Below, piece by piece: positions 9,111 to 53,564 of a stretch of DNA of 64,000 nt. Origin of the DNA: Glandiceps talaboti. Taxonomy: Eukaryota > Hemichordata > Enteropneusta > Spengelidae. The notes under the pieces were generated by a model that saw only the letters and a program-made list of their open reading frames with translations, ran no database searches and was not told the origin of the DNA. Within the stretch, counting starts at the first letter, position 1; each line of letters opens with the position of its first letter. The stretch lies in assembly GCF_964340395.1 (NCBI RefSeq), contig NC_135549.1, positions 14,220,842 to 14,284,841 on the forward strand, read 5' to 3'. The position numbers and the translations under genes were made by a program.

Positions 9111-12100
9111 CTACCATTTCTTTCCTCTCCTATTGTTTGCAGCTTTTCTTGACAGCCGGCGTGCTTCTCTGTGTTGTTTACGATAGTCCTGCAGAAAACA
9201 AACAAAGTAATATTTCTATCAGAAAATACAAGGACTTGTGAGTAAAACGTTTCTATGACAACAAAAGGAACAAATCATACATAATGCTTGAAACCACGGT
9301 AGTTGTACATAAGTAGTTTCAATGATACTTTGTAATATAAAAGTTAACCTCTAGTTTTTTTATTAAACTTGCTTGCTTGCTTGTACAATTGCATATTCAC
9401 TGCGATATTTTTAATAATTTACTATTTAGTAACTGGTAATTTCATATTACTAATTCCGAAATACTGGCAGGTCAGGTCAGGTCGGGTCAGGTCAGATACT
9501 ACAAATAAGAATGAACCTGGGAAAAACAATTCTGAGAATATTTTACAAAGTAAATCACAAGTGTACTATCTTACATTTTGCAGGGTAGGTTTCAGTTCTT
9601 CCCATTTACTCTGCAGTTCATCTTCATTTGGCGGCCTACAAAACAAGCTAGGTCCTTCTGTAATCAAAAAACAATATATGTCTCTCAAGATAAAAAAATT
9701 CTGTCGGAAAATGAAGACAAGAACAAACCATCTTCTAGTAACTGTGTTTTAGCAGAGTTTTGGAACATAAGTAACAAAGAAGGGAAGTCTGGTACATTTT
9801 GCATCAATTTCTATATACCTTGTGTCATAATTTTGGTAGGGAATCCTGGTATACTACCAAACTAGAGAGATTTTAGAGTTTCAATTACGTGACACAACAT
9901 TTTTTTACACCTTAAATACAGTGTTTTTTTGTAACGACTTATACAACGAATATAGAGACTGAAAGCAGCCCATGCACATAAAATGTTACATTTTATCTGA
10001 CCGTGAACACAAATAAACAGGTTTGTGTTTGAATCTTTCTTGATTCATCCGACAGTGATATTGCTTTGTGTTCACAGTGACATAATATGTTATATGCTTG
10101 TGTGCTATCAGTGTCTGTATTTTGGAATTCATAACAAAAAACAAGTGAGGCGTAAAAAGAAAATGTCACTTTATTTGAAACTCTAAAGTCTCTCTAGTTT
10201 GGTAGTAAATGGTGAATCTAGATAGATTTTACCAACTTTAAAACAACCTTTCACAAAAACACTTGCCAAATATGATTTACTCATTCTTATAAAAAAAAAT
10301 CTTTGTTAAAAATGAAATTTATATATGCATCACATGTCAGCTGTAAACAAAGTAACACTTACCTGTTAATCTTGGGTCACTTTCTTGGAAGAAAAACGTT
10401 GGATGCTTTGGTGTAGATTTCATTACTTTCTGTTCTTCTGTTTTCATTTGAGATCTGGAATAGACAATACAATTGATGCGTGTTACAATGATTGCATAGT
10501 CTAATCAAACTAAAACAGGCCGTATCTGCTCAGATTAACTTTAAATCATTCATTTTATTTCACTGCATGAAGTTACAAATTGATGGCCTATTTTGTTCAC
10601 CTGCTCAGCATCATACTCCCCATTTGTTGATTTACTGATATGACACCATCTTGAGAATCTGAAAATACAGCTAAAATGATGTAGGCTTGGTGTTTCACTC
10701 ATGGGACATGACAATTAAGTAATGTAATTGTCATTCAACCAAGTAAAGACAGATATCATTTATGACTTGCTCTCAAATTAACCAAATTATTAATTAAAGA
10801 AATTATTAATTACAGCAAATTGTAATGATCACATTTTATTTATTTTTTTTTTTTTTGCTTTTGCCTGGAGTAAAGACTTTAACTTTGTATTTTGTTTAGT
10901 TTACTATTCTTTTGAGTATGTTTAATTTTGTATCCATAAAACTGTTCCTGTTTAAAAATCTTGGAAAAAAGTATTAAATTGATTTGGTTTTGCTTTTGAT
11001 TTGGTTTTTACTTTGATTTGGTTTTACTTAGATATTTTGGTTACACAGTGGGAGGAGTATAACAGAATTATGGGATGCCGAACAAGTGCGAACATGATTG
11101 TATAAATTAATCTTACAGTGATAGCTGTGGCTTGATAAATCCTTACAATCTATGGTTCTGTCTAAATACATAATAATGCAATGCCAGACATCTATCCTTC
11201 ACCTTTGAGCTGTAACTATCTACAGAAACTTGTATAAATCTACAACAATGCATCTCATTGTTGAGAACAGTGGATAGACTTTGTTCCTTAGTCTATTTAT
11301 CTTCTTAAAGAGTGGGTGGACTCTCTATGCCTCCTGTCTTTCATCTTTGTTACAGGACATTTACAATGAGCATGCAGTTTTGATTATTTGTGGTGTAAGT
11401 TCCATGACACTTTATGGTTTCATGTTGTAAGATAGCACACAACTATTGTTTTTAATCTATATTTGGTTCACGATGTAAATCGTAGCAGCATGCAAACTCA
11501 ATCTGATTAAAATCCGATGTAGTGTACATGGCGCGATTTCTTTTTGGCTGTTACGTTTACTGTCGTTCGTTCTTCTGTGAGCGTCCCTTGCATACATCTG
11601 ACACAATACCATACGTTTTCCTAAGCCACTCGAGAGTGCCAAGTGAATTCACTCAACGAATGAGACTGTGTAATGTGACGAAACATGTGGGTAGAGTACG
11701 CTCTGTTCAAAAAGAGCTCGAGTGCAGACAACGTTGTTATCATTTTTGTTTGTTGATTCTCTTTCTTTCAATTTCGAACACAGAGTGTTATATTGTAAGA
11801 CGGATTCTGATTGGCTACTCGTAAGTACAAGATTGGATTCAGGAAAACCTATGGTATTGTGTCAGATGTATGTATGAGGTGCTCATAAAAAGAACAAACG
11901 ACAGTAAACATAACAGCCAAAAAGAAATCATACCGTGTAACACTACATCGGATTTTAATCAGATTGCATGCACACTATAGTAGTTATAACATAAACAAAT
12001 AGTAGACTTGGTAGAATGTACATTGTTCAAACATTTCAAATATCCACCTTTGCTGTGACCACACCGACAAGGCAATGAAATGCTTTCACAGCAAAAAGGA

Positions 12101-15100
12101 CAATCTACCTTTAACTTAGTTTACCATAACATGAGACTTTGCAGTTAGTTTCACTGAATGTGATATCTCACACCACTGAAACTGCATGCTCATCTTGAAT
12201 CCCCGGTATACTCGGCTCAAAGTATGAGTCATCAGCATCCCGTCATCATGTCATTTCCTGGTCTACAAGATATCATGTTTCACTGTTAAAACCTGTTTCA
12301 CTTTTGCACAAAGTTCGGATTGGGTAACCCTACATTGTTGGCACAACACTTACAAATACATCAACTTGACCAGGTAGGTAAGTAATATCTTGAAGGTAGC
12401 ATCAATATGAAGCTACGGGCCATCAAATACATTTTTTTTTTAATGACAAATGATTTGTCTACAGTACAGGTCTTTCAAACTGAAACAAACACTTAACATG
12501 TAATTTATTACAGTACAGTGAATAAGATCACATGATACACTTTTCTAATAATTCATAGTTTTGCAAACATTCATTTTTTTGTGCGTACTTCCTGCACACC
12601 ATACTCTGACAAGCCCATTTCATTGAAACATTTCAAACACCCAGTTGACAAACTAGTCAATTTCCAAATTGTGTGGAAATTTTGTTTACAACAGTGGGAC
12701 TTGGATGGCAAAGAAGACCACATTCAACGACATACTGTGTATTACATAGTTTTGTACCAAGAACCTTTGCGATAACGTAAGTGTAAAACACAACGCACTT
12801 CATTTAAACTTTTTAAATGATTACCAAAAGTTGAAATATTTGATTTTAAGTTGCAATGGTTTGCTAAGTTTCACATTCCAGTGAGTGTGTTCCGAGTTTC
12901 AGATCAGTAAAAGTACACATGAAAATCACAACAGCTATCAGACCTTCCTTCTCTTCACTGAGACAACATTGTGTCTATATGCTGTAACCATTTCTATTTT
13001 GTTGGTATTTGTAAATATGCAATTCAATAAGTATTTATAAACATACGAAACCATTGTACATAAGATTCTAATTCAGCCATCTAATCAATTTATTCAAATC
13101 CTAGAAAATCTTTTATTTACCTACACCCCAACCAGTATTTGAGATAGAAGTATGTCCTGCAATGCTATTCATCTGTACTGTTTGTTAGTTTGGTTGAGTT
13201 TTTGCAATATTTCAATCTGGTTAGAATTAACCTTCAAAAAAAGTGTGAAAGATGTTTATTTTATCACAAGCAGGAAATATTTATTACATTTCGTCTAGAC
13301 TTGATTGACCTTCTTCAGTGGACTGAATGTTTTCACCTGGTCTTAATGACATCACATGGTTATTGTCAAGTACTTCAGAATTGAGAACGTGATGTGTGTG
13401 AAATCCCCCCCCCCCCCCCCATCAAGGTTCATGGTAGGCTTCTCTACACGTGTGATGTCATTATAAACACTCTGCGAAAACATTAAGTAAACTGAAGAAG
13501 TCAAAAGACAAAATATTTTGAAAAGGTAATATTTCCTGCTTGAGATAAAATAAGTTTCATTTACATCATGAATCCAATTCAATGAATCTCTTCACTTCTA
13601 TTCAAAAACGTATTTCACAAAAAAATGTCATACAAAATTTGATTTTTGTTTCTAAAATTGTCTATTGGTACAAAAGTGTGGATTATTTCTAGGTATGCAT
13701 CACAAAATGTATTTTATTACTTCCTCCTCAGTGTTCTGAAATATGTGTCTGTCAGCTACGATACATAACTAAGTAGATATCTTATGACCATTCAAATGAA
13801 CTTTGAACTGCTTATGCATTAAATCACCTGACTTTTCTGCTTTGTCACAAAGACTTTCCTGATTCGATATCTGTTACAGAAAGTACAGTTGGTGTATTAT
13901 CAGTTTGCAAGAGAAGCAAAGTACTGTAAATGTGAAAAAACAAAAAGGTAAGGTTTTTATCATGAAGTGTTTGAGTGCATGGTGATTGATATGGGAGCAA
14001 CAATCAAAATTTTGGTTTCATACTAAAATTGACACAGATTAAAGCATTGTTACAACATGTCGATATAAGCTATTTACAGTAGGTTGGACTTCCTGGTGTT
14101 GTGTACATTTCTTGGGGACTTTCAGTGTTTGACACTATCTTGATCACAGGGTGATTACATCCATACATTAGAGGCAACGATGCTATCACCCACTTGTGTA
14201 GTCACCACCACATCTAACCACAACAGTTTTAGTTTGTGTTTATCTTAGTAAGCCAAAACCTTGATTGCCACTGTTGCAAGATGGTAAAATCTGCTTAACT
14301 TCAGTGGGTATTTTACAAGGGTTCCCCACCAAAATTGTGGTCTGCTGTACGAAAATCTCTACAAATTTTACCAGATTTCCAATCTTGTTATCGGCGTTCT
14401 GAAAGTTTAGCAAATACACAAAGATGGACCATTTTGTTTGTCTCAAACAACAAGTGACCAGTCTAAAGCTACTCTTCATGATCCTAATCTCTCAAACTGA
14501 GCATTGAGAAATTTGCTGAAGTACGATCACAAAATTCAGCCAAAATGACATGTTGTGTTTATACATATCAAGTTTCAATGCATGTCACTGACATCTGAAT
14601 TGACAAACTCAAAAACTTCTGCTTTCCAGATTCATCGAGATGGCCAAACACTTCATATTTTCCATTCTGTTTGGGATGTACATGGTTTTCTGCTTCAAAT
14701 CGTGTTCATCTGAACCAGTCTGTAAAGTGTACAGCTACACTAAAGTTGACTGCGCAAATCGTAATTTCAAACATGTACCACCAAAGTTGCCATCAACTGC
14801 AACACATTTGGACATATCTTCGAATGTCATCACCAGTCTGCCATCACACAGTTTCGAAATGCTGACGAATCTGATAGAACTTGACCTCTCCTCAAACTGG
14901 ATTGCACAGCTTTCATCAGATTCCCTAACTGGATTGTCGTTACTGGAAACACTTGACCTGCGATCAAACCGATTGTTCACCATTCCTGATCGTACGTTTT
15001 CAAGCCTCAAAAACTTGAACTCACTCAACATTTCAGTCAACTTGCTTGTGAACTTGTCCCCATTAACATTTCATGGTTTAAGTAATTTACAAACACTTGA

Positions 15101-18100
15101 GTTAGGTTCGAATTTCATATCTGAATTATCAGATGATGCGTTCCAATATCTGACAAATTTGAAACACCTCTACATGGAAAGTAACATGCTGTCATGTTTT
15201 CCATACAAAGCACTGCTAAGATTGACAAATATTGAAGTTATCTTTTTCGATCTGAATGTAAACTTGGGAAACTGTTCTGCCATCAAACTGCAGGGTTTGC
15301 GAAAACTGCGTCACCTATCACTAAGTAGCTGCGGCATGCACGACGACAGTCTGCTTACATTCGAACCTGGGGATGCTCCCCTTCAAGAACTTGACCTGAC
15401 GTACAATGACATCAAAGGTATAGCTTCTGGAACATTCACTAAAATACGAAATATACCAGCACTTTACCTGGCACGGAATACTATGACAGCAGATACCATA
15501 GAAACATCACTGTACGACTTCCAGGAGTCTGACATCAAGGTCCTCAGTTTGGATGGACAAGTTGAACCTATGCTTGTCATCACAAACACAACTTTCAAAG
15601 GACTAGAAACTACATTATTGGAAGAACTATACTTTCCATCCAATGACTTACTAAATCTTCCTGATGGTGTATTTCAATGGCTACCACAATTGAAACTGTT
15701 GGATCTCAGTCGTAATAATTTCAACAGTCTATCCAGAAGAGTATTTGCAGGGCTCCACAATTTAACCACTTTAAGAATGGAAGTAAACCATTTTCAGAAT
15801 ATTACAGAATTATTACAGAGTTTATACGAATTACCATCTCTACAAGAGCTTTTTCTGCTGGATAACCAACTGAAAGGAGAGATTCCTGCCAAATCTTTCG
15901 CTAAACTTGGATCACTTCGCCAACTTGATCTATCCTATAACACACTCACTCTCAACTCCGACAGTTTCAATAATTTATCACAACTTCAAACTCTGGATCT
16001 TTCTCAGAATTCTTTGGCTTATTTACCACACAAAGTATTTTCAGATTTGGTGTCGCTAAAATCCCTCAATTTGAAAGGTAATGAACTGAAGGACAATGAC
16101 TTTGTGTATACCAACCATCCTTTTGACAACCTAGCAAGAGTTACGACTTTAAAGTTGAGCAATCCACGAATACAGTTTCTCCATCTAGAGGATTTACAAT
16201 CTCTTCAGGTGTTGAACATTTTTGGTAGCGATTACCAAATGGAATTTTGTTATGATGATCTGAACTTTAACGACTTGTCAAAAGCAAACTTGTCGAATCT
16301 TGCTGAACTTTATATTCACACCATGTGCATAACCACAGTCTCTGGTTCTGGTGTCACAGACATGTTTCCAAGCATGCGTGTTCTTTTCATGAAAGATGTA
16401 CCACTACATGACAAGACCACAAATGATTTCTCAACATTTCTTGGTACATTTGAGAACTTACAAGAGATTTATCTTAAATATTGTGAGGTTCGTCTCTTTG
16501 AAATGATTCCGTACACATTGAGTAAATTACACACACTCGACTTATCTCACAACAGTATATCGCATATCACATCAAAACAAATCCAATCTCACCCTCACCT
16601 ACGATTTCTAAATATCCAGAACAATCTCTTCCACTGTTCTGATTGCAAAATGAAAGATTTTGTGGAGTGGATGAAAACTGATGATGTTATACAACTAAAA
16701 AATGCCCAACAATATTCATGTGCATCGCCAATCAGTAAAGATGGCACTTTGCTCTACAACCTAGCTTTTGGACTAGAATGTAATTTAATATTTATGGTAG
16801 CCATTCCTGTATCAGCTGCTCTTATATTTCTAGCACTCTGTATTTCTCTCTGTATTTACTTTCGTTGGCGGATAAGATATCTCATTTTCCAGATCAAACT
16901 AAAATTCGGTGGTTATGAACCACTTCCCAATGAAGAATCAGCTGAACGGCAACCACTCGACAAACAATATGATGCTTTTGTTTGTTACAACAAAAATGAC
17001 AGATCCTGGGTCATGCAACAATTAGTTCCAAATTTGGAGAAAATTGATCCACCAAATTTCAAACTCTGTCTGCATGAACGTGACTTCATACCCGGCATGG
17101 ACAACTTTGAAAATATTCTGGAGAGTATTGAGAAAAGTCACAAAACTATGTTGATACTGTCACCTGGCTTTGCACAAAGTGAGTGGTGTTATTTTGAGAT
17201 GAGAATGGCACTAGACAAACTATTCACTGGCAACAGAGATGTTCTTCTTTTGGTGATGTTGGAAGATATCCCAGACGACAAACTGCCAAGAGTTTTACGA
17301 ACAATCTTTCTGACCAGGAAGTATATAAAATGGCCAGAGAATGAGTCTGGAAGACAATTATTCTGGGAGGAACTGAAAGTTGCACTAAGAAGTGACAACA
17401 AGGTGAACAGAGTGACCGATATTTAAAAGATTGGCTATCAATGTCTTCACTCTTTACCTTCAAGGTAGTACTCAAAATATTACTTCAAGCACAAAGCTCA
17501 ACTTAAAACAACTTATTCTTGATTCCAATTTTCAATAGCAAACAAAGTGATCTAAAGACACTAGCGATTGCTCAAGCATCACACAAATTTTCCAAATATG
17601 GGCATCACTTGATTCCAAATATGGGCATCACTTGATTCCAAATATGGGCATCACTTGATTTCAAATATGGGCTTCACTTGATTCCAAATATGGGCATCAC
17701 TTGAATCCAAATATTGGCCTCACTTGAGAGCAAAGTGTGTTCAGAATATATATGACACAAAGCACATGGAGATATTTCAGTTTAGTCTGTTTTTGTAATC
17801 TATAAGATTGCATCACATTTTATGTACAGTATTTCATTTTTAAGACAAGCTAATTTTACTAGCACTTGTCTGCTAGTTAAAAACTTCGAAGTCACTTCAT
17901 GCTCTACACTGTATATACAGAAGTTATGTACTTGTCATTTTGTAGTCTGTTAGAAAACTTTTGCATCATATAATACCCCAGTAGCAAGTTATGCAAGTCA
18001 AAAAATCAGTAACACATCAATACGTCAACAAGTTCAAACCAGTCTACTCTACAAACAGAAGCTGGTATCTTTATTTGAAACTATGAAAAATTTCTGAAAA

Positions 18101-30596: not shown

Positions 30597-30671
30597 GGTG
30601 ATCTAAAAACAAAAAATATCACATTTTAAAATTCTATCTCTCAGTATAATTTTTGTTAACTACATGAAACC

Positions 30672-30927
30672 ATAGACAGTGGAGGGCTTGTCTGGATTGT
30701 AACATGGTCTATAACTAAACCAGAGTGGAGGTGTAAATCATAACGATATCATATAGGAACTAGACTAGTGTAGTGGAGGGGATACCAGGAAGTTAATCCA
30801 TTTATGAGCTAGGTGATAAAGGGATCCCAACAGACATTATTTCAAACACAGACAAGCTTTGTTGTCTGTACTTCAAAGGATATGCCTTGATATATGTTGA
30901 GCGTCCTTTTCCCCTCCACTGTCTATA
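30672..30927. mobile_element. Fold-back or TIR element family G (256 bp)
   Basis: The ends ATAGACAGTGGAGGG and CCCTCCACTGTCTAT are inverted repeats. The interior shares a block with the fragment at 3114-3165. It lies in the first NOL8 intron, about 75 bases upstream of the start-codon exon. Confidence 0.75.
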
Positions 30928-31482: not shown

Positions 31483-31869
31483 TTACATTGTATATAAACC
31501 AAATGGGGGTTGGGTGCCATTAGAGGGTAATTTATAAAATGGGGTATTGGGCAAGTGTTCTGGAAGGCTGGTATTTTTAGTAAAACACACACTGGTATTT
31601 TGTGAAACATACTCTGGGAGTTTATACATCCATACAATATTAGTACAATTTGTAAATTGAACTGCCAAGTTGTGAAACTTTCCTTCTTCCTCTCGGTAAA
31701 CTGCACCACCACATACATAATAGTCCCCAACCTTACAGTTACTGGTTTCAAGTGAGAATGTACCTCGATTGTTATAGAAACTAAACTTATAGTTATACAG
31801 AATTGTGTCGTTGGGCCTTTTAAACCTCGGAGTTGGAAGCATGGCGAGGTACACCCATATCCCTTGCAC
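31483..31869 (-). CDS. Hypothetical 128-codon ORF in NOL8 intron 1
   Basis: An uninterrupted frame on the NOL8 strand with protein-like composition: six cysteines, several NxS/T sites, and a stretch FSLETSNCKVGDYYVCGG that loosely recalls the last strands of an Ig-like domain. No signal peptide and no clear splice sites joining it to another exon. It may be a relic of a retrocopied extracellular protein or chance. I do not recognise it. Confidence 0.25.
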   Translation of the reverse strand: MQGIWVYLAMLPTPRFKRPNDTILYNYKFSFYNNRGTFSLETSNCKVGDYYVCGGAVYREEEGKFHNLAVQFTNCTNIVWMYKLPEYVSQNTSVCFTKNTSLPEHLPNTPFYKLPSNGTQPPFGLYTM

Positions 31870-31991
31870 TATATAATTCCTCTTTCGCCTTCATCACTTT
31901 TTGGTATACAGGTGGCAAAAGCTGTTAATCTTTTCCCTTCAAATACATTAACTTAGTACGTATAATAACAGACTAAGCTTAAAATATCTAC

Positions 31992-32075
31992 CTTCTTCGA
32001 TAACACACGTGGTGTCCGCTATCCCCTAGGAAGCAGCCATATTGTAAACTTCGCCGAGAGCGACGCCCTCTACGC
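31992..32075 (-). other. Probable non-coding first exon of NOL8, with a mini uORF
   Basis: Read on the minus strand, GATAGCGGACACCACGTGTG leads to CGAAGAAG and a donor GTAGATAT at 31990-31991. The acceptor for the start-codon exon is at 30603-30604. The uORF at 32026-32040 reads ATGGCTGCTTCCTAG (MAAS, stop). The right boundary, the transcription start, is a guess. The sequence is locally GC-rich compared with its surroundings, which fits a promoter-proximal exon. Confidence 0.55.
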
Positions 32076-32079
32076 TCAT

Positions 32080-33500
32080 ACAACAACATACATCTCCTTT
32101 CGTTCTTTGAAGTTGAACGTGTATTCCGAACCGTAGAATGACAAGTTTTTTTCATGCTCTCATCGGAACCCCCTAAATGGTTTGGCGGTTGGTTGATAGA
32201 AAATTTTTTTCAAGAAACAGTCGCCCTGCCCAACTTTCAAATCACAACTAGAATAATGCTTCTGTAGCCTAGGCTTCTCTTTGATTGCTATTATTCTTCC
32301 AAAATATATTTCTACCCATGGGATACGGGAATGTAATAGTGTACCATACTTTACTTGTCTATAATGTTATTTTTGGCCAAGAAACATTCCAAAATTTTCT
32401 CTACATTACAGATTTTCTACTCTCTGTTGACATGACTATTTTATACTTCAACAGATGATCATTCCCTGCATGAAACTCTGTCCAAAGTAACAAACATTCT
32501 TCACTGACATGTATACACAACATTCTACAGAGACTTTGTTCAAAGTTTGGTCATATGTTTAATTAATAACAAGAACATGATAGTAAGCAGCAACATCGAA
32601 AAAAATCACTGAAAACAGTGAAATAACAAATTGGAATATTTGGTATCCGACAGTATATACTACCACACTGAAAACTTTGTCAACTGTATCAGCCTTAGAC
32701 TTTTACGGTAGAATGTGCCTTGGGAACAATTCCCTTAAAAATTAAAGTTATCTAAATCTTTAATAAAAAAAATGAACGTAGCCATATGAAAGCTTGTTCC
32801 TGTTTTTTTCCCAACATAGTATTAAAGATTCCCCATCTTGCTTTCAAGCAAATCAAAAATCATTTATTTTCCCCCCTTTTGTATTTAGCAGCCATATTGG
32901 ATTAAATGGCTTGATTTTGATGCATTTTTGTCCAAATGATGCCAGATTTATTTCTTCTTGATTTTAAATGTGAATGGATTTGAGTTTTCTAGACAAAAGT
33001 AACAACAAAAGTCTAAGACACATTCTATTTCAGATAAAAACAAATAACAAAATATCATTACATGACATTTCACAACAGAAGTTTCTGCTTCGTTTCCAGA
33101 TTTTAGGTTTCATGATGACTTTGAGCTTCAAAGGAATGAAAATGCTGTGCTTACAAATTACAACCTATAACCCAATTGATAAACCATACTTCATATAGTC
33201 AGTACTTTTAAAGTAACGAAAAAATACAAAATGAACAATAATGTTTCAGAGTGAAAACAATCTTGTCTCTCAAATAACTCTCATAATTGTAATAATCCTA
33301 GGGTGCATTAACGTCAAGTGTTTCATTCACAAGTCCAGAAGTTTTTCAACTAAAACCCAAAATGTGGCAAGCCCAGAAAGTGTACAAATAATAAAATATA
33401 CTTGTACTGGTAACACAATACAGCAGATAAATAACAGAAACAAATAAGAAAATAACAATAAATATCTTTTGATCTAGTCTATTAAACTGAAAGGTTTTAC
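32080..33500. other. Intergenic region between the NOL8 promoter and the TRIM gene
   Basis: AT-rich; the open frames at 32974-33198 and 33241-33447 look random. The first 100-200 bases should hold the NOL8 promoter. No TATA box was obvious. Confidence 0.4.
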
Positions 33501-33582
33501 AGTAAAATTGTCAACTTTCTTTCAAAAAACAATATAAAGTGACAGAAAGCGTCAAACAGATGGACAAACAGCCAAATGGACA

Positions 33583-33585
<3 letters not shown>

Positions 33586-33641
<56 letters not shown>

Positions 33642-33650
33642 ACACACAGA
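33586..33650. repeat. (CA)n microsatellite
   Basis: About 27 CA units with one interruption (CATA), just downstream of the TRIM stop codon. Confidence 0.95.
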
Positions 33651-33714
33651 TAGGTTGACACAGACAGGAAGACATGAGATGGCTCTCTTTTGTCATGAAA
33701 TCAAAGAAATCGTT

Positions 33715-35058
33715 TCACATCATTCTAGGAGTACGAGATGAAGGCCATTTGCTCTCTTTCTTTCTCTCCACTGCACCTAGCTGACACTCAGAATCTGAGA
33801 TTTCTCTATCAGTAATTGTAAAATCACCACTCCCAGTTGTGTTGAATGCAGCACCATGACAACCATGTCCAGAGACTCCAAACTTCTGGGAATACTGAAC
33901 ACTCCCTTGATGTGGATGAAGTCTTTCATCTTCCCCAGAATAATAACTCTTCTTTTCATCATCAGTGTTTCCATCAAAAGATTGCTTGACTGGCGGTTTT
34001 GGCCATTTGAATGGTGTTTTCTTCTCTGGCTTCATATTCAACCTCTCGATAGAACTTTCCAGTTCTTTCAGCTCCACAGGGTTAGGTTCTGGTAGACAAT
34101 TTTTGAACCTCTTTTCATCAAACTTTGGTAAGAAGCTTGTTGCCATGTACAACTGACATAATCTTTCCATAATTTCTTTCTTGTACACCAATATTTCACT
34201 TGCGTTGTTACCATTTCTGACCATTTTATCAGCAAAATCACAGCAGTGGTTGATCAGACTCTCCCCCACATACATACTATGTTTCTCAACTTGCAAGTAC
34301 TTTTGCTTCTGATAACAACTTTCTTGGATTTTCAGTACCAATGATTCTTCATACTTTTCTAACTCATGATGTAACTTATCAAATGTACTCTGGATTTCTC
34401 TAATCTTTACCTGTTTTTCTTTCTGTAGTATCTCTGACACAGTTTCAATGTCTCTGGCAGTTTTTTGCAAGGAATCAATTTGATGCTTACACTTCTCAGT
34501 GGCTTCCTTGATGTCACTAGCTGCGTCCCCACTGCAGTCTTCTATGCCAAACACAACATGCTTGTCATGGGCTGACTGACAGTCTTGACAGAGAAGCTCA
34601 TCACATATTTGACAGAATGACTCACATGACTGGTAATGTTCAGAACACTTTAATGTACACTTATTAGTCTGGTTTCTGCCCAGGCTGTCATGAGCTACAA
34701 AGCTGTGGAGTGGGTTGTTGTATTTGTGTGTGACCTCACAGTTGCTGCACAGCTTCAAAGCACAATCAAAACATTCATAAATGGGTGGCTTTTTCTTACA
34801 ATCTTGGCACAATGTTACATCCTTGGATTTCACCACAGTGTTGTTTTTCAGCGCTCTCAATCCACCATCTGGTATAACAGTCTTGTGATCACAGACTGGA
34901 CAAATAATTTCCCTTTTCCCCTCAGTACTTACACACTCTTTCAAGCATGACAAGCAGAAAGTATGGAGGCAGGACAGTAGTTTGGGAATTCTGAAACTGC
35001 CAAAGCATATACCACACAACTGTTCAATGGTAGCGGGTGTCTTGAAACAGATGGCCAT
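33715..35058 (-). CDS. TRIM-family protein: RING, two B-boxes, coiled coil; intronless coding region
   Basis: 447 residues from ATG 35058. The ATG has a Kozak-like context and lies six bases after an AG acceptor (35065-35066), so the in-frame upstream ATG at 35073 is intronic. RING residues 15-56: CGIC, CLHTFC, LSC and CPVC, with the usual C3HC4 spacing. B-box 1 about 82-118 (LCQDC, YECFDC, LCSNCE, TH); B-box 2 about 131-170 (CSEH, CQICDELLCQDC, SAHDKH). A coiled coil follows (about 180-300). The C-terminal 120 residues are polar, with no NHL, filamin or PRY-SPRY domain. TRIMs are usually E3 ubiquitin ligases (family knowledge); the substrate is unknown. It ends at TGA 33715-33717, before a CA repeat. 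It sits between NOL8 and CENPP, head to head with CENPP. Confidence 0.9.
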   Translation of the reverse strand: MAICFKTPATIEQLCGICFGSFRIPKLLSCLHTFCLSCLKECVSTEGKREIICPVCDHKTVIPDGGLRALKNNTVVKSKDVTLCQDCKKKPPIYECFDCALKLCSNCEVTHKYNNPLHSFVAHDSLGRNQTNKCTLKCSEHYQSCESFCQICDELLCQDCQSAHDKHVVFGIEDCSGDAASDIKEATEKCKHQIDSLQKTARDIETVSEILQKEKQVKIREIQSTFDKLHHELEKYEESLVLKIQESCYQKQKYLQVEKHSMYVGESLINHCCDFADKMVRNGNNASEILVYKKEIMERLCQLYMATSFLPKFDEKRFKNCLPEPNPVELKELESSIERLNMKPEKKTPFKWPKPPVKQSFDGNTDDEKKSYYSGEDERLHPHQGSVQYSQKFGVSGHGCHGAAFNTTGSGDFTITDREISDSECQLGAVERKKESKWPSSRTPRMM

Positions 35059-35792
35059 GGTGGTCTGAAACAATCCAACAAATCAAGGGTTACCCAATAT
35101 GGTTTTTGATATGCTTTTTCTCTTTCTTTTTAAGTTGCATGTTTCTTCTCAAAGATGTTGTAATTGTCTGGAACAGTGAGTTATAAGATAAAAAGTGTAT
35201 GAATATTTGGTGTTGTACAATATGAAATGACAAAACTCAAAACTTTAATCAATGAATGGCATCCATCTATATTTCTTTTAACAAACAATGTGACTGGGTG
35301 TGCGTCCTACATCTAAGATTAGGCAATGCACTCTTTTTCTTGTCCATGGGCAATGTAATGACTACAAATAAGGCCAAAATGTTCCCCAAATCAAATGAAT
35401 CAATTTTTTTTAAGGTGGAAATAATCCATAAAGACATTTGTGTGATGTCATCACATTTTCCTGATATACTATGATGTATGACGCAATTTTTAAAAGTTAT
35501 AATCCGTCTGCAAGTTTTATTATTGCGTATGGATCTCCAGGCCCAGGGTCACGAATGTCCCTGTTAAATGCCAGACATATATAAAATACAAGTACATTTT
35601 GTAGTTACACACATTAGAGTGAAAGTGACGTAATCTAGAACTTTAATAGAAGCATTGTTTCCAAGAAAGTGATTTCGTCAGTTTGACTTATCTAGTAAAT
35701 ATAGAGCTAATATATTACTGTATTACTCGGCTGTAGATGTAATGCTCATACTGCCAAGATAACTGGACAAACTTTCCGACATCAACTCTTAC

Positions 35793-35900
35793 CTTTCTTG
35801 AAACAATGATGTCTTCACTTGAAATGGAAGTGACTGCGTTCACGCACATGTGAAACAACCGCCACGCCTCGCATCTGTGAGCAAAATGAGTGCGCCCTCA
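35793..35900 (-). other. Probable 5' UTR exon of the TRIM gene
   Basis: On the minus strand, ATTGTTTCAAGAAAG is followed by a donor GTAAGAGT at 35785-35792, which can join the acceptor at 35065-35066. The right boundary is estimated. Confidence 0.5.
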
Positions 35901-36171
35901 CACTTCACACTTCAACTTTGCAGCTTCGAGCATTTCGATTCCCCAAAACTCTGACCATTTACAGGATTTAGTCTGTATATATTGTTTCTATTTTAGTGGA
36001 CTGAAAATGAACAATCCAAACTGGGTAAAAAGAGGAGAAAGGCCTCAATCGATTACATTATCACTGGAGGATTGACATAACAAACACACACACGCATTAC
36101 AAATTTTAATGGCGGACAGTTTGAAACGTTAGTCGTCGACTAAAATAGTGAAAATCTTGCAGATTGGTGAC
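35850..36171. promoter_or_regulatory. Presumed shared (bidirectional) promoter region of TRIM and CENPP
   Basis: The inferred TRIM 5' exon and the CENPP start codon face away from each other with about 300-380 bases between them. The stretch is locally less AT-rich (CACGCACATG, CGCCACGCCTCGCATC). It also contains a 7-codon uORF on the CENPP side at 36109-36132. No TATA box was seen. Confidence 0.45.
36109..36132 (+). promoter_or_regulatory. Upstream ORF in the CENPP leader
   Basis: ATGGCGGACAGTTTGAAACG then TTAG: seven codons and a stop, in an AATGGCGG context, 40 bases before the CENPP start. It is translated only if the transcript starts upstream of 36109. Confidence 0.4.
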
Positions 36172-39100
36172 ATGGAGGGCTCTTCTGAAGCTGATCTCAT
36201 CTCTCATGTAAATAAATCGATCCAGGAGTAAGTATGACTTTTTATTGGAGTAATTTCTGTACGAACGTAGAAAGTGTAACTGATCGACTGCGCTGCTGTG
36301 CTGGAGAGGGAGCCCAGCCCAGGAACCGTGTTTACATGTAATAAAAATCAAATGAGTAAAAATAAACCTACGCAAGCAAACAAAACTTGTGTGGGTAAAT
36401 GAAAATACCATAAACACATGAAAAAATAAGTATACATGATGTATATACGGGCCTGTATCCTAAACTAAGTTTCCATTATATTGCGCCATATCAAAACTTA
36501 TAATAATAAGGGTAGTTACCCCAGTTACTGGTACGGGCTAACCATAGACCCTGACGTTCGTGTAGGGTCTGTAGGCTAACGAAGACGTGTCGGACTGAAC
36601 GGAGCGCATATTTCCAGAACTAGGTTTATAGGAAAGGCATGAATATTTCGGGCAGCTGATTAGCAATGTACACAGATAAATTATTCCTGACAGAGAATTC
36701 AGTAAGGCTTTAATAATAGGTATCACTTAAGTTTGTCAACATTGAACACAACCCCCAAAAAAGACAAAAAACGAAAAGAAAATCACCCTGTAGCAATCTG
36801 ATTAAAATCTGATGTAGATGTCGGCTAATCGAAATCGTTCATTGCTATTTTACCTTCGTTATTTTGCCTGAATTGACCTTCTTGGTACATGTTAACATTT
36901 TTTAGCCTGAACAATTACGATTAGCCGACATCTACATCGGATTTTAATCAGATTGCAATATGAGGAAACTCTTTGTGTCACTGTTACTAAGTTACCATTG
37001 CAGGTGTTTTCCAGTGCATATTACATGCATATTACGTATACATAGGTCCCCTGTACACAATGAAAATCAATACATGCACATAGCTCTGTGTGAAGATCTT
37101 CAAAATCATGTATTAAATTCTAAATGGTCCATTGTGATGTCTCTTGAAGGGTAGCAACATTGTTACAGATTCATGTTGGGTCCTTGCATTACCCTCATCA
37201 TAATCATCGTCATTGAAGTTAGCAATTATGTATGATCTCCTGGCATATGATGAATTATTTATTTCTGTACTTTAGCCACATGTAGTACAAATAAGTTCTG
37301 AACAAATATATATCGTCAGGCACAGAAACAAAAGTGAACTATGCTCATTATTTCAAATCGATGTCACGTTGTGTAGTATTGTCAGCAAAACTGTGTTTGT
37401 GAAAAAAGTTATAATTTTTTTTTGTTTCCAGTTTTCCTGTGGCAGAATCTGGCAGTGAGTTGGACTCTGTGACCAAATTTATTGATAGCATCACCAAACA
37501 AATGTCCCCACAACGTGTAGACTTAGGGCACATACCAAATTTGCCATTGGAAGACAGTGACCAAACAGCAACATTGTCAAATCAAGACTTGGCTACCTTG
37601 AAGGAGCAATACAGACAAGAAATTGACAAATTAACCAGGGAGATATCCATGTTAGAAGATGAGGTACAGAGACAAGAAGATGAAACACTGGAATTCAAGG
37701 ATACAGAATTACAGGAAATCATGTAAGAATATATTGTAAAAAATTTGATGAATTAGCCTTATTGAAATATCAGTTGAATTGTTGACTTGATAGGTCCTCT
37801 GCTGTAGGACAGAAGATTCACTCAAAGACATTGATCTGGCATTTATTTTTATTATTAATAATTTACTCTTAATTACTAATTTGAGCTGGGTGAACTATAG
37901 TCTCGTTATTTTTGTTAGTTGAGTAAAGACTCTTATGACATTGCCAGAAACAAATAAATGTTTTTTGAGTACAGGTGTATTTCTGTTTGAAGTACTGATG
38001 CACACAGCCAGCAAGGTAATGACATGATGTTTTTACAGTACGAAATGCAATGAAAAATAATGAAATGTGTGGTTTATTTTTTGCTCATTTTGTTTTACCT
38101 TAGGAAACGTTTGCATGATGTTGCTGATTTGAATGAAGTAAGCAAAGAAAGTTCTAAAGTGAGTACTTGTAAGATTGTAATCAAAGTAGGTAGTAGGGCT
38201 GTACATGCCTCTCAGGTTCCAACCAACTTGAATTTAGTTTAGTAGTATATGCATTAGAGTAGAGTTCACTGTAGGAAAGTTCTCTTTGTTGGTTTACTGC
38301 AGCCATCATTTTGTGTTCAAGTAGAAATTTACAAATGACCTTTCCCCTAATGAACTCTGACCCTTTGCATATTGCAAATACATGTACTGATGATCCCAGA
38401 CCTGAGAGACATGTGTCTGTGTTGCTCTAGTAATACCCCTCAACTAGTAGTACCTAACTGTACTCCTTACTACCTGACTTGAAGAAAATGATGTGTCTAT
38501 TGCACAATTATGCTTTTGTTCCCCCCTCCTCCCTTCTGTACGAATACACCCTAGACTATCTCACCAGTCCTCAGGAGCATCGCTATTAGCTGTTTTGTAT
38601 GTACCAATATCTACCGAATAATTGTACTAGAATATCCTTGTACTGTGGGCCTTCATAAACTACATAGGACTAATCATTTGTTGATGTGTTACTGCGACTC
38701 CATGGTATTGCGATGCCCAGCAGCAACACGCCAACAAATGATTAGCCCTGTGCAGTCGATGAGGCCCCACAGTATAAGGATATTGGAGTACAATTATGCG
38801 ATGGATAACAGCATGTACAAAACAGCCCTTTTAGCGATGCGATGCTCCAACTGTGAGAGAGTGAGAGAGTCTAAGATACACCCATATACACTCTTAATTT
38901 ACTTATTCCATTCATTGGTTTCTTTCTTTCAGTTGAAAATGACATCCATGTTTACAGAGATACACCTGACAGATGTGACCAGAAAAGTCATACAACGTTC
39001 AAAGAGAAAAACTAAACAAAGACAAACATTATGGGGTCAAAGTTATGGCTTGACATTTCAACTTGACTTTGATGTACAGGAGACTCAGGTAAATATTGTT

Positions 39101-42100
39101 AGAACAAAGAAGGTGTCAAAAAATGTAGGTTATACAGTCCTGTAAGATGTTAAATGTGCTTCACATTTTGAGCAATAACTCTTTCTTGAAACAGAAGTTA
39201 AGGTTAGACAACTAAAGAGTCAGTGATTCCTAACATAAAGCATTTTCATGACGTTAGGATTGATTGACTTTTTTTTGTCTAACTTTAGTATCCACTTTTG
39301 ATATAGAGTTGTTGCTCAAAACATTATGTGACTGTACATCTTAAAGGACTGCTTTGTCTGTTATTCTCAATCTCTTTTAATACAGTCCTAGCAGCATTTA
39401 TTTAACTAAATAATGTTAGAATAATATCCCTTCTCAGTTGCAAGTACAATTTCTTTTACAATTTAGACATTTAACAAATTGTAGAACTTGAATCCGTAAG
39501 TTACATGTATAAATTATGAAATCATGACACACTGTCCAGGCTATTTCACTAACGTTTGCAATTCTCAGTATTTGTAATATTTACCATTCCTCACCTCATG
39601 CTAGAAGATCTAAATAAAATAAGAAGGGTCTGACTGGTCAACTTATTCTGACAAACCTATAGTTGCATGTGTCGTGCATAGAGCAAAAAGAAATGTTATT
39701 TCTATGATGTGCCTCGGGAATCATTTCAGGTAATAATAAGTATGTATTGATTGTTCTAGTGTATCTGCTTTACATACCATCTCAAAATAACCATGTACAT
39801 GTAGCACTTGTTTCTACCCAGTACTGTAATTGCTATGTTTCATCACAAGGGGGCGCTGTTCATGTCATATTTGCCTAACCATTACAAGAAATTTATTGAT
39901 AAGTTCAATATCTAATTTCTTTCTTTCTTATAGATGAAAAGAAAGAAAAGAATAGATTCTGAATCTTCTGATGACATCACTCACAGTAAAGCTTGCATCA
40001 CAAGATTACAAGTCACTGTTGATAATCAAATTGAAAATGAAATGAGAGAATTTATCCAGAAAGTCCAAGAAGAGAAAAATCTGCAATCGTTTTTCCGTGG
40101 TTTTGAAAGTTGTGCACAGTGTTTTCAGTACAGGCAGAAGACCTTTGAGTATTTTAAGGTATATGTTATGTTTTTACTGTCATAGAAAATAGGATTTTAG
40201 TATTACTGTCGTCTGATATTTTCTTCAACATTACCAATGTAGTACTAGGACATAATGTACATCAAATAGGGTCATCATTTATTGCTGGTCCAGTGACATC
40301 GATGGCTTATTTTGCCTGCATTTGTTTTCATGATTATATTCCAAATGTAAGAGCTATGTGTCAGGTTGTTGCATTCTCCCCAAAGGTTATTTTGTTCATG
40401 GATTAGAGAATGGCTTATTCAGTTACTGAAATTCTTGTTCACATTGGCCACATTTTTTCTGTTAATGTTTAGGCTGAAAAATGATAATGTCAAAATATCA
40501 CATCCATCAAAGATGCACTTGCCAGCCATATGGCATATACTTGTAACACTCACTGACCAGCACAAAAAATATGAAACTTAATACGTGTACTATGTTACTG
40601 AATATGTGGGTCAGATTGAGAGTTCAAAATCATCAATTTCCGAAGAAAAAGTTTGACATTTAGTGGAGAACTCTCATTAGTAGTAATACATATGTAAATT
40701 AATTTCAATTAGAAATGTGCAAGCTTTCATCATACTGGCCATTTTATATTACAAAGAGTTATGAAATTTCATTTTGGTAAATAATATTGTAATATGAATG
40801 AAAGAGATAGGTATACCCTATAAGCTAATGCAATAACTTGACAAGTGGTGCAAAACCGACATACTTCATGTATACAAATGAAAAATGTTACCTCCTACAT
40901 TCCTCTTATTATTATCAATCTCATGTATGTGATACATTATACCTCACGCAAGCCAAGTTGAACATATTCAAACTAAGAAATATTGGATTTATGCCCTGGT
41001 TCTATATCACAACATATGTCTGGTTCTGTGATATTCAAAATATGAATCAAAACATTACAAATTGCTAGTATCTTCCTAATTTTTCATAATTTATACATAG
41101 GAGGTATAAATTATAATTATATTATTTCCCAATATTTTTCTTCATTCAGCCTAAAAACACTCATGATAGAAGTATTTTGTCACTACTCGTCTTTTGACTT
41201 GTAGTGTCAACACCCTTAGACTTACTTAGGTCACTTGTGTTTTCCTTGGCAGAACAAGAATGAATACTATCCTATTGTAACAGCTGAGACTTGGTTTATC
41301 CAGTCAGACTGTTCTCATTAAATCATCTCCCTCTTCCAGTTCTGTATTTCTGTATAGTTTTATATACAGGTAAAAGTTGTACAAATTTAAACATATGGTC
41401 ATTTTCATATGTCCATACCATAGGACTTACTGTCAGAAAAGTTCAAAACAAAAAAAGTAAACTAAAATAAACTACATAGTGAAACACACAAACATCATAT
41501 TTTGTTTTCCCATGTGGGGCCCCCTTCATCTAAGTTATGATCTAATAAATAGTCTCCTGATATGCTCTTCCTTTCTTTAATCTTATCTCCCATGTACAAC
41601 ATAGACTAATAATTCATTGAGAAATATAGAATTATTATTAACAAATGTGAAATTTGATGGATGACCAGCTGTATAGTCTTAGCAGTTTTCTGATGATGAC
41701 ATGGAAGTATACAGCCATTTGAAATGAATACTGTTGATGAACTTTTTAGACAGTGCTGGATAGCATATCTATAATGTACATTGATGTAATGGATATCTCA
41801 CTTTCTCTCCAAAAACATCTGGAGAATTTATCAAGAACTTATGCTGCTCTGTCATACATTTCATATGAACATTTCAACGACAGAAAACAATATATCTGTC
41901 TTGTGTAGACATTTTAGCGCTATCCATGTATTCAGAGATGAAGTATTTCCAAATTTTTTCATAAATCAAATCCAAGTTTATTATCTTGCAAATGTGAAAT
42001 CTTAAGTATATATAAAACAATATATCTGTCTTGTGTAGACATTTTAGCGCTATCCATGTATTCAGCAATGAAGTATTTCCAATTTTTTTCATAAATCAAA

Positions 42101-45100
42101 TCCAAGTTTTTGTATTTTACAAATGTGAAATCATAAGTATTTTTTTGTAAATTTGCGGATGAAAATAATTCTTGATTTTTCACTGTCTTGTTTCAAAGTA
42201 AAAGTGTAAAAATGACAGATTTGTAATGCTGTGAGACAGACAGTAATTCACAGAAATAACAAAGCATTAAGCAATTTTAGATATGACATTAGCTTTAAAT
42301 CAAAACTTTGTATTTGTGTGGCCATTGAGATATTCAGACAGACAACCTGACATCATATTACTATCAATAAAACTGAGTGTCATTTACGTGACCTTAGGGT
42401 GACCTTTAGGTGTATAGCTTACTTTCTTCCCAGGCTGTGCAAATTAATTATCACATTAACTAGGGGTATCGATTGTGATATCAGGTATTAAATAGTCAAA
42501 CTTAGGAAAAGAAAAGAAATGTGAGCAAGTATCACTGATGCAGGAGTTGCAGCTATGTCTGTTCAAATTCTACTCAAAGTGTCCTGCTGACAAAGCAATT
42601 GATTCAACTGGTTGATGACATGACTTTGACCCATTATGGCATTATCCTCCCACCCTCCATCCCCCATGGACATCTCATCATCCAAGGAATTAGCCTCCTA
42701 GAGACTAGCCATTGACTTTCAAATCTGTCAATCCATTCCCGGTCCAAGAGATCTTCAGATTTTAAAAGCCAACAGATAGCCTCTAGACTACCAACAGATC
42801 ACAAAGTGATCATCATGGGTAAATCACTAAGGTTATCAGATTACAGTTCAGAATATGAAACCTAACAAATCATTTCTAGTGGATGGGATATGCATCTTAA
42901 TTTTAAGTTCACTTTCATACTTGCTTAATTAAAAGGACTTTTCCTTTGAAAATTTTTCATACAAAAATGTACATTTACCAAAGATGTTGCTGCATGTCGG
43001 GGGTTGGTAATTGTACAGTGAAACAACTACCAAAAAACAAAAAAATATTAAAAGTTGCCAAAAATCAGTTGCATTGAAACGCTATTGGTTTACTTGGACA
43101 AAATAAAACATTTTGTTAATTGTCTCCTGATGATTGTCTCATTTGCTGTAACAATCAACAATATTGTCTGTCTGTATGTCTAGTATTCTCATACTACCAG
43201 TATACCTGTCAGCTTTTGATTTAATGGGAAAGGGTTTTATTCGAAATGAATGATTTTCACTTCCTGGCATATGTGACAACCCCAGACATAACTTACATTA
43301 TTTAGCTGTACTGATTTTAATATATGAGATAGTTAGCATAGTGTACCCTAGAGTTCAGTGTAGTTGTATGTTTATTCCTGTTTATCTTCCATGTTTACAG
43401 CAACTTTACCCTAAAGTGGTGAGGTTGGTTGGTGGTCCGGTGAGCAACACACTACAGTTCATTCATCCAACACGTCCAGGGTAAGCTAAACGTCTACTCA
43501 GCTTCTTCAAAACTCATGAACCGATTAATTGTGAAAAATGAAATATCTGTAAGCATCAATGACATTGTTAGTCATCACTCAGTTACCATGTATATTAAGA
43601 TTAATGAAATTTCAACAAACTAGTAACTACACCAACTTCTTTCCCACCAAAATTATTTTGACTACACATTGTTTTCATGTAACATTTTTACCAAATTATT
43701 ATGACATAAAGTTTTGTTTTCATTTAATTTTTTGGCACATCTCACTTTATTTTTAGACTGAATCTACATATATAAAGTTTATGTATAAATTTGTACCAAA
43801 TTATGTTGAAAAATATGACATTTATACTAAATTATTATGAAAATAAAATTACAATATTTTTTTGCATGTTTCTATGATTTTGATGAGGTTTAAGTTTGCC
43901 AAAAGTTCTTTCCCGCCAAAATTATTTTGAATACACATTGTTTTCACGTAACATTTTTACCAAATTATTATGAAAATAGAATTGCAATATTTTTTTTCCA
44001 TGCTTTGAAGGGGTTCAAGTTTGCCAAAACTTTTCTTTAGATTAAATAATTTGTGTTCATAATGTTTCTTGTCATTAGAAAAAAAGAAGAAACATAAACA
44101 AAAGAAAAGTAGAAGGACATTTACAACCAGTGACAGACAAGCATTTACAAGTGGAACTTGTTACAAACAGGGAATGTAAATAAATGAATTTATACCACTT
44201 GGCTCAGCATGTTGGAAGTACAGAGACAAATATTACATTCCATCATTTGATAAGAATGGTTTTATGGACTCTTTACACAATAGCTCACATTCACAAATAC
44301 ATTTCAAGTTCACCTGGCATTTCATGTCCAAGTAAAGAAGCCATAAAATTGTTCTTATCAAAGCATTTACTAGGTCTCGGCTGTTCAAACATGATGGGCC
44401 AAGTTATATTAATCCAATTCAGTTGTTTACTTTTCCCTGTTTGGAACAAGTTCTGCTTGTAAATGCTTGCCTGTCACTGGCTGTATTATTTCTAGTTTCT
44501 CTCACACACACAAAAACACATCATGATGCTAAATCCGATAAAAAAATTGTTGATATAAATGTGACTACTAGTATTTTACTCTTTTAGTTCTACTTATTAG
44601 GGTTTATAGTGCTATAACCAGAGTGTTGTGTAAAAAGCAATGAATTACAGTTTTTATTGTAGTAGTTTGTTATTCAATGAAATAAACAAAATATAAAACT
44701 AGAGCTGCAAATATTTAGGAAGTATTTACTTGTCAGTTCCGTTTTCCATGAAGTCAAACTGAATACTCAGTGATGTAAATAAAGGCTGTTAGCTGACAAA
44801 AACTTGCGACTACTCCACACTTGCTTGCTGACTTCACTTTCAGGAATTAGGGTTCCAAAATTCTTTGGTTCATCCATTGTTTTTTAGATTCGTTTGTCTC
44901 CCTCAGTCATACTGGGTAGATATTACTGCCTGCTTTTCCAATTTTACCTACATTGTTTAGCTACATCCCTGCATGCTAGAAGTTGTTAAAATCCCTTTTG
45001 AAGTAATTTTGTATCAAAGCTTACCATGTCATTTATCAGAAATATTTTTTAAAAAAAGAAATAAATGTCACCAACATCTTCTTGTCCTGGTAAATTGACA

Positions 45101-46887
45101 AATTTGGCATTGAGTAAACAGTTAGTTGACCATTTTAATCAAAATGAGAATATCCTTGAGCAAGTATATTACTTTTATCCATGAATTGCAAGGTGACATC
45201 TGAAACAAACTAAAAAACTAACTACCATTAATAGCTCCCAAAGTTGACAAAACTTATAAAACCTCACTTATTGTGATGTCCTGTTACTCAATTTTATTAA
45301 TTCCAATATCATCAGTTATTGTGACTTCAACGAGTACTAGGATGCTTCGAAGACTCCAGGGTCTTTGCAACAATTTATCACGGCTTCCTACTTGAAAAAT
45401 CAATGTGAAATGACATCGACAAAGTTTGTGTTTGTAACTTAATACCAAGCAAAAAGCTAAAAAATATAATGTGTTTGTTATTGTACGTTATTGTACATTT
45501 AACACATTTATTATGCTTTTCCAATGTATTGAGTTACAAACACAGACTTGGTCTATGTTGTTTCACATTGATTTTTCAAGTAGGAAGCCATGATAGAATT
45601 GTTTTATTAATTAAATATCCAAATTAAATACCCAATCCTCATCCATATGGCCAGTTTAATATAATATTTGTAATAAGTGACTATTTTTAAAAAATTATTT
45701 TCTGTACAGACCTATATTCAAAGTACAATGGCAGACAACCCTGACATCCAACAACAGGCTGGTACCCACCATAGATCTCTTCATCAAAGTACCCAAGGAA
45801 TGTGAGTACAACTATTTCTATGAAATTCTAGAATGTTTTCCTCATTGACTGCCTTCTCTATAACAGACTGACAGGAAACGATGCGACACCAACTGTCTGT
45901 ATATGATATATGCTTGTTTTTCATAAAGGAAATGACCCCAGAATTGTAATTTCCTTGTAAGAATGGTTTGGTTCACCACAAAATATACATCAGATGTTTG
46001 GGAGTAAAGATATCACTTTATCGGTCAAGACCAACTGATTGCTCTGATAGCAAACAGTTTCTTTGTTTTTCCAGAACTATTTTGAGCTTTATGTCTGCAT
46101 TTTCAGTATATTACTAGGGTTTAATGTATTCCGATTTTATGAAAACTGAAGTCAAATCAATTGAAATCAACACAAATGGAGAAAAAAATTCAGTGTAACT
46201 ATTTTTTTAATTAAAAACTTATCACCAAAACAAATTATTATCAATAACTGAAATCAATGAATAAGGAGTAAAACATTGTCAAGTCACATTGAAATATTGA
46301 GGTTGATCCAAGACTTTTTATTTCATAAAACTCATAAAATAATAATAATAGTAATAATAAAGCTATTTGTGTTCCACTGGAATTTGACAGGAGGATCAGT
46401 TACAGTCTGCTGCAGTATTGAAATCTTGATGAGAAAGAACACTCTAGAAGTCACAGTGTGACACATATTTCATGTGTCATAAACTACTCAATAACTATTT
46501 ATAACTAACAAGTACTTTCACACCTGAATTTACATATATTGAAGCTAACCTTTTCACACCTCTGGTTTAATACTCAACACCTCCAGTAAATTTGGATCAT
46601 TCTGTCAGATCCAGTTAGACACTGAAGAAGGACAAGTGATTTGTTTCAAACATGTATGTTTCTCAATCAAAAGTGGAAGAGAACTTGTTTATGAACTATT
46701 TATGTACATGATATCAATTTATTGATTTATAGATTTATTTTAAAAATCCTATTTTTGTATTTCAGTAGGTAGACTTGATAGGAAGGGTACGCTGAAATCT
46801 GCACCGGCTAAGTTTAGACATATGGTGAAACATCTTGGTATAGAGAGAGCTATTGATACAATGGTTCAAATGACATGTACATACTGA
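36172..46887 (+). CDS. CENPP: Centromere protein P (CENP-P), complete, 8 coding exons
   Basis: Exons: 36172-36227, 37432-37722, 38104-38158, 38933-39088, 39934-40158, 43401-43480, 45710-45801, 46766-46887. Phases agree at all seven junctions; 1077 nt encode 358 residues (human is about 290). The N-terminal half has a predicted coiled coil (LKEQYRQEIDKLTREISML). The C-terminal part has CENP-P landmarks: LTDVTRKVIQRSKRKTK, YGLTFQLDFDVQETQ, FFRGFESCAQCFQYRQKTFEYFK, YPKVVRLVGGPVSNTLQFI, RPG, LVPTIDLFIKVPKE and the C-terminal FRHMVKHLGIERAIDTMVQ. CENP-P pairs with CENP-O in the CENP-O/P/Q/U/R group of the inner kinetochore (family knowledge). An AATAAA lies 35 bases after the stop. Intron 5 is 3.2 kb. 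Several introns hold fold-back elements. Confidence 0.95.
36794..36955. mobile_element. Fold-back element family B, short copy (162 bp)
   Basis: Left CAATCTGATTAAAATCTGAT and right ATCGGATTTTAATCAGATTG are the same termini as the element at 11499-11966. The rest (GTAGATGTCGGCTAATCG against CGATTAGCCGACATCTAC) is a different arm sequence. It lies in CENPP intron 1. Confidence 0.9.
38537..38890. mobile_element. Fold-back element family H (about 350 bp)
   Basis: Long inverted arms: GGAGCATCGC with GCGATGCTCC, AATATCCTTGTACTGTGGGC with the inverse at 38764-38785, and GACTAATCATTTGTTG with CAACAAATGATTAG. Pairing extends outward to TAGACTATCTCACC. It lies in CENPP intron 3, ending about 45 bases before the exon 4 acceptor. 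Part of it is read as a false N-terminal extension of the exon 4 frame. Confidence 0.85.
41878..42145. repeat. 131-bp tandem duplication
   Basis: AAAACAATATATCTGTCTTG to AATCAAATCCAAGTTT occurs twice in direct orientation at about 131-bp spacing with few differences. CENPP intron 5. Confidence 0.9.
43633..44000. repeat. Direct repeat pair in CENPP intron 6
   Basis: CCAAAATTATTTTGACTACA with CATTGTTTTCATGTAACATT and TTTACCAAATTATTATGA at 43648-43702 recurs at 43916-43972 with a few changes. A weaker third copy of the last part lies between them. AT-rich intronic repeat of unknown origin. Confidence 0.7.
44122..44485. mobile_element. Fold-back element family A, copy 3 (364 bp)
   Basis: It is the same palindromic architecture and interior as the copies at 864-1240 and 6458-6833 (TTGTTACAAACAGGGAATGT, CATCATTTGATAAGAATGGT, TTAATCCAATTCAGTTGTTT). 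The outermost 30 bases differ: TACAACCAGTGACAGACAAG, inverted at the right end as CTTGCCTGTCACTGGCTGTA. CENPP intron 6. Confidence 0.85.
45371..45660. mobile_element. Fold-back element family C, left-truncated copy (290 bp)
   Basis: It aligns with the element at 21582-21941 from CAATTTATCACGGCTTCCTA to CTCATCCATATGGCCAGTTT; the left terminal 70-80 bases are missing. CENPP intron 6, ending about 50 bases before exon 7. Confidence 0.85.
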
Positions 46888-53560: not shown

Positions 53561-53564
53561 TGGA

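Follow-up and report, generated by a model that had tools for sequence, protein, structure and literature searches.

In a window of 64,000 bp of animal DNA (the whole stretch analyzed, C1:14220842-14284841) we found the genes NOL8 and CENPP as divergent neighbours, with cytosolic IARS1 nearby on the same contig. The two genes are unrelated, NOL8 serving ribosome assembly and CENPP chromosome separation. Contig C1 is 35.9 Mb long and belongs to a 590-Mb genome of 47 contigs. The pairing of NOL8 and CENPP looks very old, and its context supports an inherited neighbourhood. On balance, we explain the present arrangement by such an inheritance together with a flip of the pair as one unit relative to IARS1 and a TRIM gene between the two starts, NOL8 on the one hand and CENPP with the TRIM gene on the other probably using separate start regions. 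The coding regions concerned are:

9111-30596, minus strand: NOL8 coding region, 15 coding exons, 1622 amino acids, with an RRM_1 domain and similarity to human NOL8
30596-30464, 29816-29754, 29011-28933, 28205-28061, 27376-24119, 23458-23351, 23117-22956, 22346-22268, minus strand: NOL8 exons 1 to 8
21423-21240, 20853-20773, 20347-20190, 19333-19168, 10454-10363, 9657-9575, 9188-9111, minus strand: NOL8 exons 9 to 15
36172-46887, plus strand: CENPP coding region, 8 exons, 355 amino acids, with matches to Pfam CENP-P and to solved chains
36172-36227, 37432-37722, 38104-38158, 38933-39088, 39934-40158, 43401-43480, 46587-46672, 46769-46887, plus strand: CENPP exons
33715-35058, minus strand: TRIM gene, one exon, 447 amino acids, between the NOL8 and CENPP starts, with RING and B-boxes

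Judged from its sequence, the plus-strand gene is CENPP. The exon model opens with an ATG at 36172 and its stop codon ends at 46887 (+). PF13096 (CENP-P) matched residues 163-348 of 355 with E=2.6e-22 (79.8 bits, cut-off 25), by which profile positions 1-176 of 177 were covered. Protein Data Bank (PDB) chains named Centromere protein P, which we take to be human, matched with E=1.4e-22, residues 150-354 of the model aligning onto 90-284, and in this solved-chain comparison the direct similarity extended to the C terminus. Residues 1-149 gave only weak coiled-coil-type matches and no CENP-P match among Pfam families and solved chains. When the PF13096 profile was searched against the genome, the four best candidates were scored and the one match reported was an exon of the CENPP model. 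The donor of exon 7 (AAA/GTGGAA, the slash marking the junction) is weak, and the junction there is the least certain one.

The minus-strand gene is identified by similarity as NOL8. Its reading frame was open and phase consistent across all exons with GT-AG introns, the exon boundaries having been picked using simple splice scores and visual inspection. The N terminus contained an RRM_1 domain (Pfam E=2.8e-8, with a query that lacked two residues of the final model). The human reference consisted of pieces of NOL8 that did not come from a database record; in the alignments, 97 of 193 N-terminal and 143 of 458 C-terminal positions were identical. These pieces matched the model with 1.8e-61 and 1.9e-36, whereas none of 1000 shuffled pieces did better than E=0.004. 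For the C-terminal part neither a Pfam family nor a solved chain was matched.

That one of the two genes has been misidentified is very improbable. Such an error might be suspected because the libraries used contain no family profile for NOL8, whose identity is argued from the RRM and a reference from outside the databases, and because residues 1-149 in the CENPP model found no CENP-P match. Against it stand the CENP-P E-values near 1e-22 and the strength of both matches to the human NOL8 pieces.

The long exon of NOL8 carries three repeat copies at 24559-27024, spaced 789-852 bp apart. They are 72-98% identical depending on the stretch, with 300-nt cores at 89-96%, so that the middle of the NOL8 protein is a triplication. 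Directly after the CENPP stop, at 46998-47881, a tandem array with a 33-bp unit family was observed.

The ATG of NOL8 at 30596 (-) and the ATG of CENPP at 36172 (+) are divergent and 5,576 bp apart. The TRIM open reading frame (ORF) between them matched zf-B_box (E=8.7e-7) and zf-C3HC4 (E=1.6e-6) in Pfam. It points the same way as NOL8 and diverges from CENPP, and its start codon is 1,114 bp from that of CENPP. An earlier sequence-only reading of this stretch had named both genes, placed their start codons 5.6 kb apart in divergent orientation and reported a TRIM gene between them; the models agree on all of these points, the plus-strand gene is CENPP as proposed, and the outer ends of the proposed span are exact, the NOL8 stop ending at 9111 (-) and the CENPP stop at 46887 (+).

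Cytosolic IARS1 lies on the plus strand and starts at C1:14311343, at a distance of 43.6 kb from the CENPP stop. One of its exons matched the PDB chain 'Isoleucine--tRNA ligase, cytoplasmic', presumably the human one, with E=5.2e-30, as well as PF19302 with E=4e-10. In total, 21 collinear plus-strand matches covered residues 1-953 of a human IARS1 sequence that did not come from a database record. At least two further long ORFs lie between CENPP and IARS1, at L008:6192-9365 (1058 amino acids) and L009:5604-7676 (691 amino acids), and neither of these uninterrupted frames matched a Pfam family at E 0.01.

In mammals (human 9q22, mouse chromosome 13, dog chromosome 1) CENPP, NOL8 and IARS1 are close together as well, and NOL8 and CENPP are likewise divergent there. 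With IARS1 held fixed, the mammalian order is presumably CENPP(-) NOL8(+) IARS1(+), whereas the order found here is NOL8(-) CENPP(+) IARS1(+). IARS1 thus lies beyond CENPP in this animal and beyond NOL8 in mammals, and the comparison indicates that the pair was inverted as a unit relative to IARS1. A table for mouse chromosome 13 gives Bicd2, Cenpp, Ecm2, Aspn, Omd, Ogn, Nol8 and Iars (PMC4204525), a table for dog chromosome 1 gives CENPP, ASPN, OMD, OGN, U6, NOL8 and IARS1 (PMC11851536), and the legend of a figure on vertebrate OGN linkage names NOL8 and CENPP together (PMC6293640). NOL8, CENPP and IARS1 are therefore linked in this animal and in both mammalian lists. Protein divergence and the CpG pattern suggest that the animal is distant from mammals.

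By our own arithmetic, two random loci would fall within 5.6 kb of each other in a 590-Mb genome with a chance of about 2e-5, and three unrelated genes this close in two distant genomes are not expected by chance. The nearby IARS1 and the mouse and dog gene lists lend support to a long-lasting pairing, as the earlier reading had supposed. NOL8 and CENPP would already have been adjacent and divergent, near IARS1, in the ancestor common to this animal and mammals, and a flip of the unbroken pair as one unit would have followed on one of the two branches. With IARS1 as a third member, the neighbourhood can be followed more easily from one animal to another. In the titles, abstract openings and passages retrieved, we found no literature on the NOL8-CENPP pair outside vertebrates.

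Here, the pair differs from its mammalian counterpart by the TRIM gene between the starts, which would have arrived later, and by a Toll-like receptor gene nested within NOL8. The features that bear on the present start regions are:

31601-32500, minus strand: run rich in CpG and candidate promoter of NOL8; a candidate leader exon here would end at donor 31992
35301-37220, no strand assigned: run rich in CpG that spans the CENPP start; candidate two-way promoter for CENPP with the TRIM gene, or for these two and NOL8
30597-30622, minus strand: NOL8 leader acceptor, first exon base 30602, 6 nt before the ATG; tttttgtttttag/atcaccATG

Between 22.7 and 52.5 kb only these two CpG-rich runs were called, at 31.6-32.5 kb and 35.3-37.2 kb. 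The densest CpG cluster of this interval falls into the first one (15 CpG in the 250 bp of 31990-32239), and the region 31750-32350 was found once in the genome by DNA search. AATAAA motifs at 32952 and 32868 could end the TRIM transcript ahead of the 32-kb run. The acceptor in front of the NOL8 ATG scored 1.9, inside the range of -0.6 to 7.7 of the acceptors in both gene models, so that a non-coding leader exon is expected upstream. Two minus-strand donors between the starts are of interest for such a leader: the one at 31992 (AAG/GTAGAT) scored 8.0 and was the fifth best, and the one at 35793 (AAG/GTAAGA), inside the 35.3-37.2 kb run, scored 11.6 and was the best. The TRIM gene has an acceptor of its own, with the first exon base at 35064, 6 nt before the ATG, and a score of 0.6, and donor 35793 can consequently belong to the TRIM gene. 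We favour, although not strongly, separate starts for NOL8 at about 32.0-32.2 kb and for CENPP and the TRIM gene at about 36 kb over a NOL8 leader at 35.8 kb. NOL8 would most likely start now in its own CpG-rich region, and the one near 36 kb would serve both CENPP and the TRIM gene.

The competing view, which we regard as rather unlikely, is that the shared promoter near 36 kb is intact and that a NOL8 leader ending at 35793 is spliced over the TRIM gene to the acceptor at 30602. The TRIM gene would then lie inside the first NOL8 intron, whether with this leader exon or with another. The expected leader exon and the position of the best minus-strand donor in the CpG-rich run of the CENPP start fit this view. 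However, it leaves the densest CpG cluster without a role, and the acceptor 6 nt before the TRIM ATG explains donor 35793 by the TRIM gene alone. According to the earlier reading, the entry of the TRIM gene must have split the shared promoter; a split is plausible in view of the gene between the starts and the two CpG-rich runs, but 'must' was too strong, since NOL8 may have its leader at 35.79 kb.

Several points weigh against an inherited neighbourhood with separate start regions as we describe it. The evidence on linkage comes from one non-mammalian genome, and the start regions were placed from sequence features alone. Donor 35793 outscores donor 31992, which is itself unexceptional with minus-strand donors of a score of at least 8 occurring at 1.3 per kb. 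The window holds 12 CpG-rich runs, and some of them, for instance those at 11201-12120 (in a NOL8 intron) and 8801-9540 (at the end of NOL8), fit no known start. IARS1 served as a partial control. One feature there speaks for our reading: around the first coding exon at 90.5 kb the CpG ratio in 2-kb bins, which was 0.87-0.96 at 82-88 kb and 0.61 at 88-90 kb, dropped to 0.15-0.28 at 90-106 kb. The control is not clean, however, as upstream of IARS1 there is a broad CpG-rich block instead of an island. Moreover, the bins at 106 and 116 kb reach 0.65 and 0.75, and these precede the presumed last IARS1 exon near 124.5 kb (L014, placed by eye).

The block ahead of IARS1 is about 37 kb long (from about 52.5 to 90 kb), and its 2-kb bins have CpG ratios of 0.61-1.13. 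It lies between the CpG-poor CENPP and IARS1 and stops just ahead of the first IARS1 coding exon. Motifs of the ATGGC type near 32.04 and 36.11 kb were somewhat more numerous in the window than expected from shuffles (5 versus 1.3 and 7 versus 1.7) and were dropped as promoter evidence because other matches lie in no promoter. CACGTG was not enriched in the window (9 versus 6.2) and was not used as evidence.

By a common definition, the transcription starts of a bidirectional pair are not more than 1000 bp apart (PMC2648788). NOL8 and CENPP resemble such pairs in being divergent, broadly required and CpG-rich in their start regions, but differ from them in that 5.6 kb and another gene separate their start codons. 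A NOL8 leader exon at 35793, if used, would restore the bidirectional arrangement. Among the matches listed from the bidirectional-promoter literature, neither CENPP nor NOL8 was named in the parts retrieved.

The earlier reading had further attributed the persistence of the pair to shared regulation or a constraint on rearrangement. A shared core promoter is unlikely to hold the pair together in this animal today, since the anatomy favours two separate start regions, and shared regulation of another kind is at most possible. In human kidney, according to the passages retrieved, variants at the locus are quantitative trait loci for both NOL8 and CENPP (PMC11464144). This gives some evidence for joint control of the two genes in humans. 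That another shared control element, outside the core promoter, has held the pair even through the inversion of the unit, after the TRIM gene split a common promoter and replaced NOL8 in its half of the CENPP start region, appears doubtful to us.

There is a little less than an even chance that no constraint, regulatory or functional, has kept the pairing and that the linkage simply remained unbroken. This is compatible with the inherited neighbourhood that we favour, which leaves the cause of retention open. Absence of constraint is suggested by start regions that appear separate with another gene between them and by the looser linkage to IARS1, which survived too without adjacency. In addition, a comparison of eight species excluded, in the passages retrieved, the functional relevance of the paired genes as a driver preserving divergent pairs (PMC3403606). 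On the other hand, NOL8 and CENPP seem, given the presumed mammalian orientations, to have changed their position relative to IARS1 together, in a single event, and the human kidney variants are quantitative trait loci for both genes.

The same comparison, with fly and worm as invertebrates, states that divergent pairs did not stay intact between invertebrates and vertebrates but were broken and shuffled (PMC3403606). NOL8-CENPP would be a counter-example to this shuffling if the present animal is an invertebrate, to which its patchy CpG pattern points. With the TRIM gene between the starts, the pair would also offer a natural experiment on the need for a shared promoter in such a linkage. Ancient animal microsynteny, in which unrelated genes have stayed linked since a deep animal ancestor, was reportedly described by Irimia et al. 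in 2012. NOL8 and CENPP, as unrelated genes apparently kept together since a deep ancestor, resemble these cases, and the pair is a new example of an already known phenomenon, deep microsynteny.

The gene nested in NOL8 is the following:

14640-17426, plus strand: Toll-like receptor gene, one intact exon with leucine-rich repeats (LRR) and TIR; TIR E=1.8e-17, LRR_8 E=4.8e-71

It lies antisense in the 8.7-kb NOL8 intron 19167-10455. The NOL8 intron thus holds a leucine-rich Toll-like receptor, and the mammalian gene lists have other leucine-rich genes, Ogn, Omd, Aspn and Ecm2, in the interval from Cenpp to Nol8. On the minus strand inside CENPP, a single ORF of at least 90 amino acids was present, at 36106-36459; no counterpart of Ogn, Omd, Aspn or Ecm2 was noticed there in the ORF list, no profile search having been aimed at them.

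In the window, none of ten scanned ORFs at 7-61 kb, including 31486-31890, had a Pfam match. A second tandem array, with a 67-bp unit in 10 copies and 98% matches, is located at 52898-53566. On the minus strand, CUB domains are encoded at 1251-4087 and calcium-binding EGF domains beyond the left end of the window (L007); both perhaps belong to a single gene for an extracellular protein, located downstream of NOL8. Farther to the left, about 40 kb outside the window, an exon of a BTG-family protein was detected (L004:3-458, E=4.2e-42).

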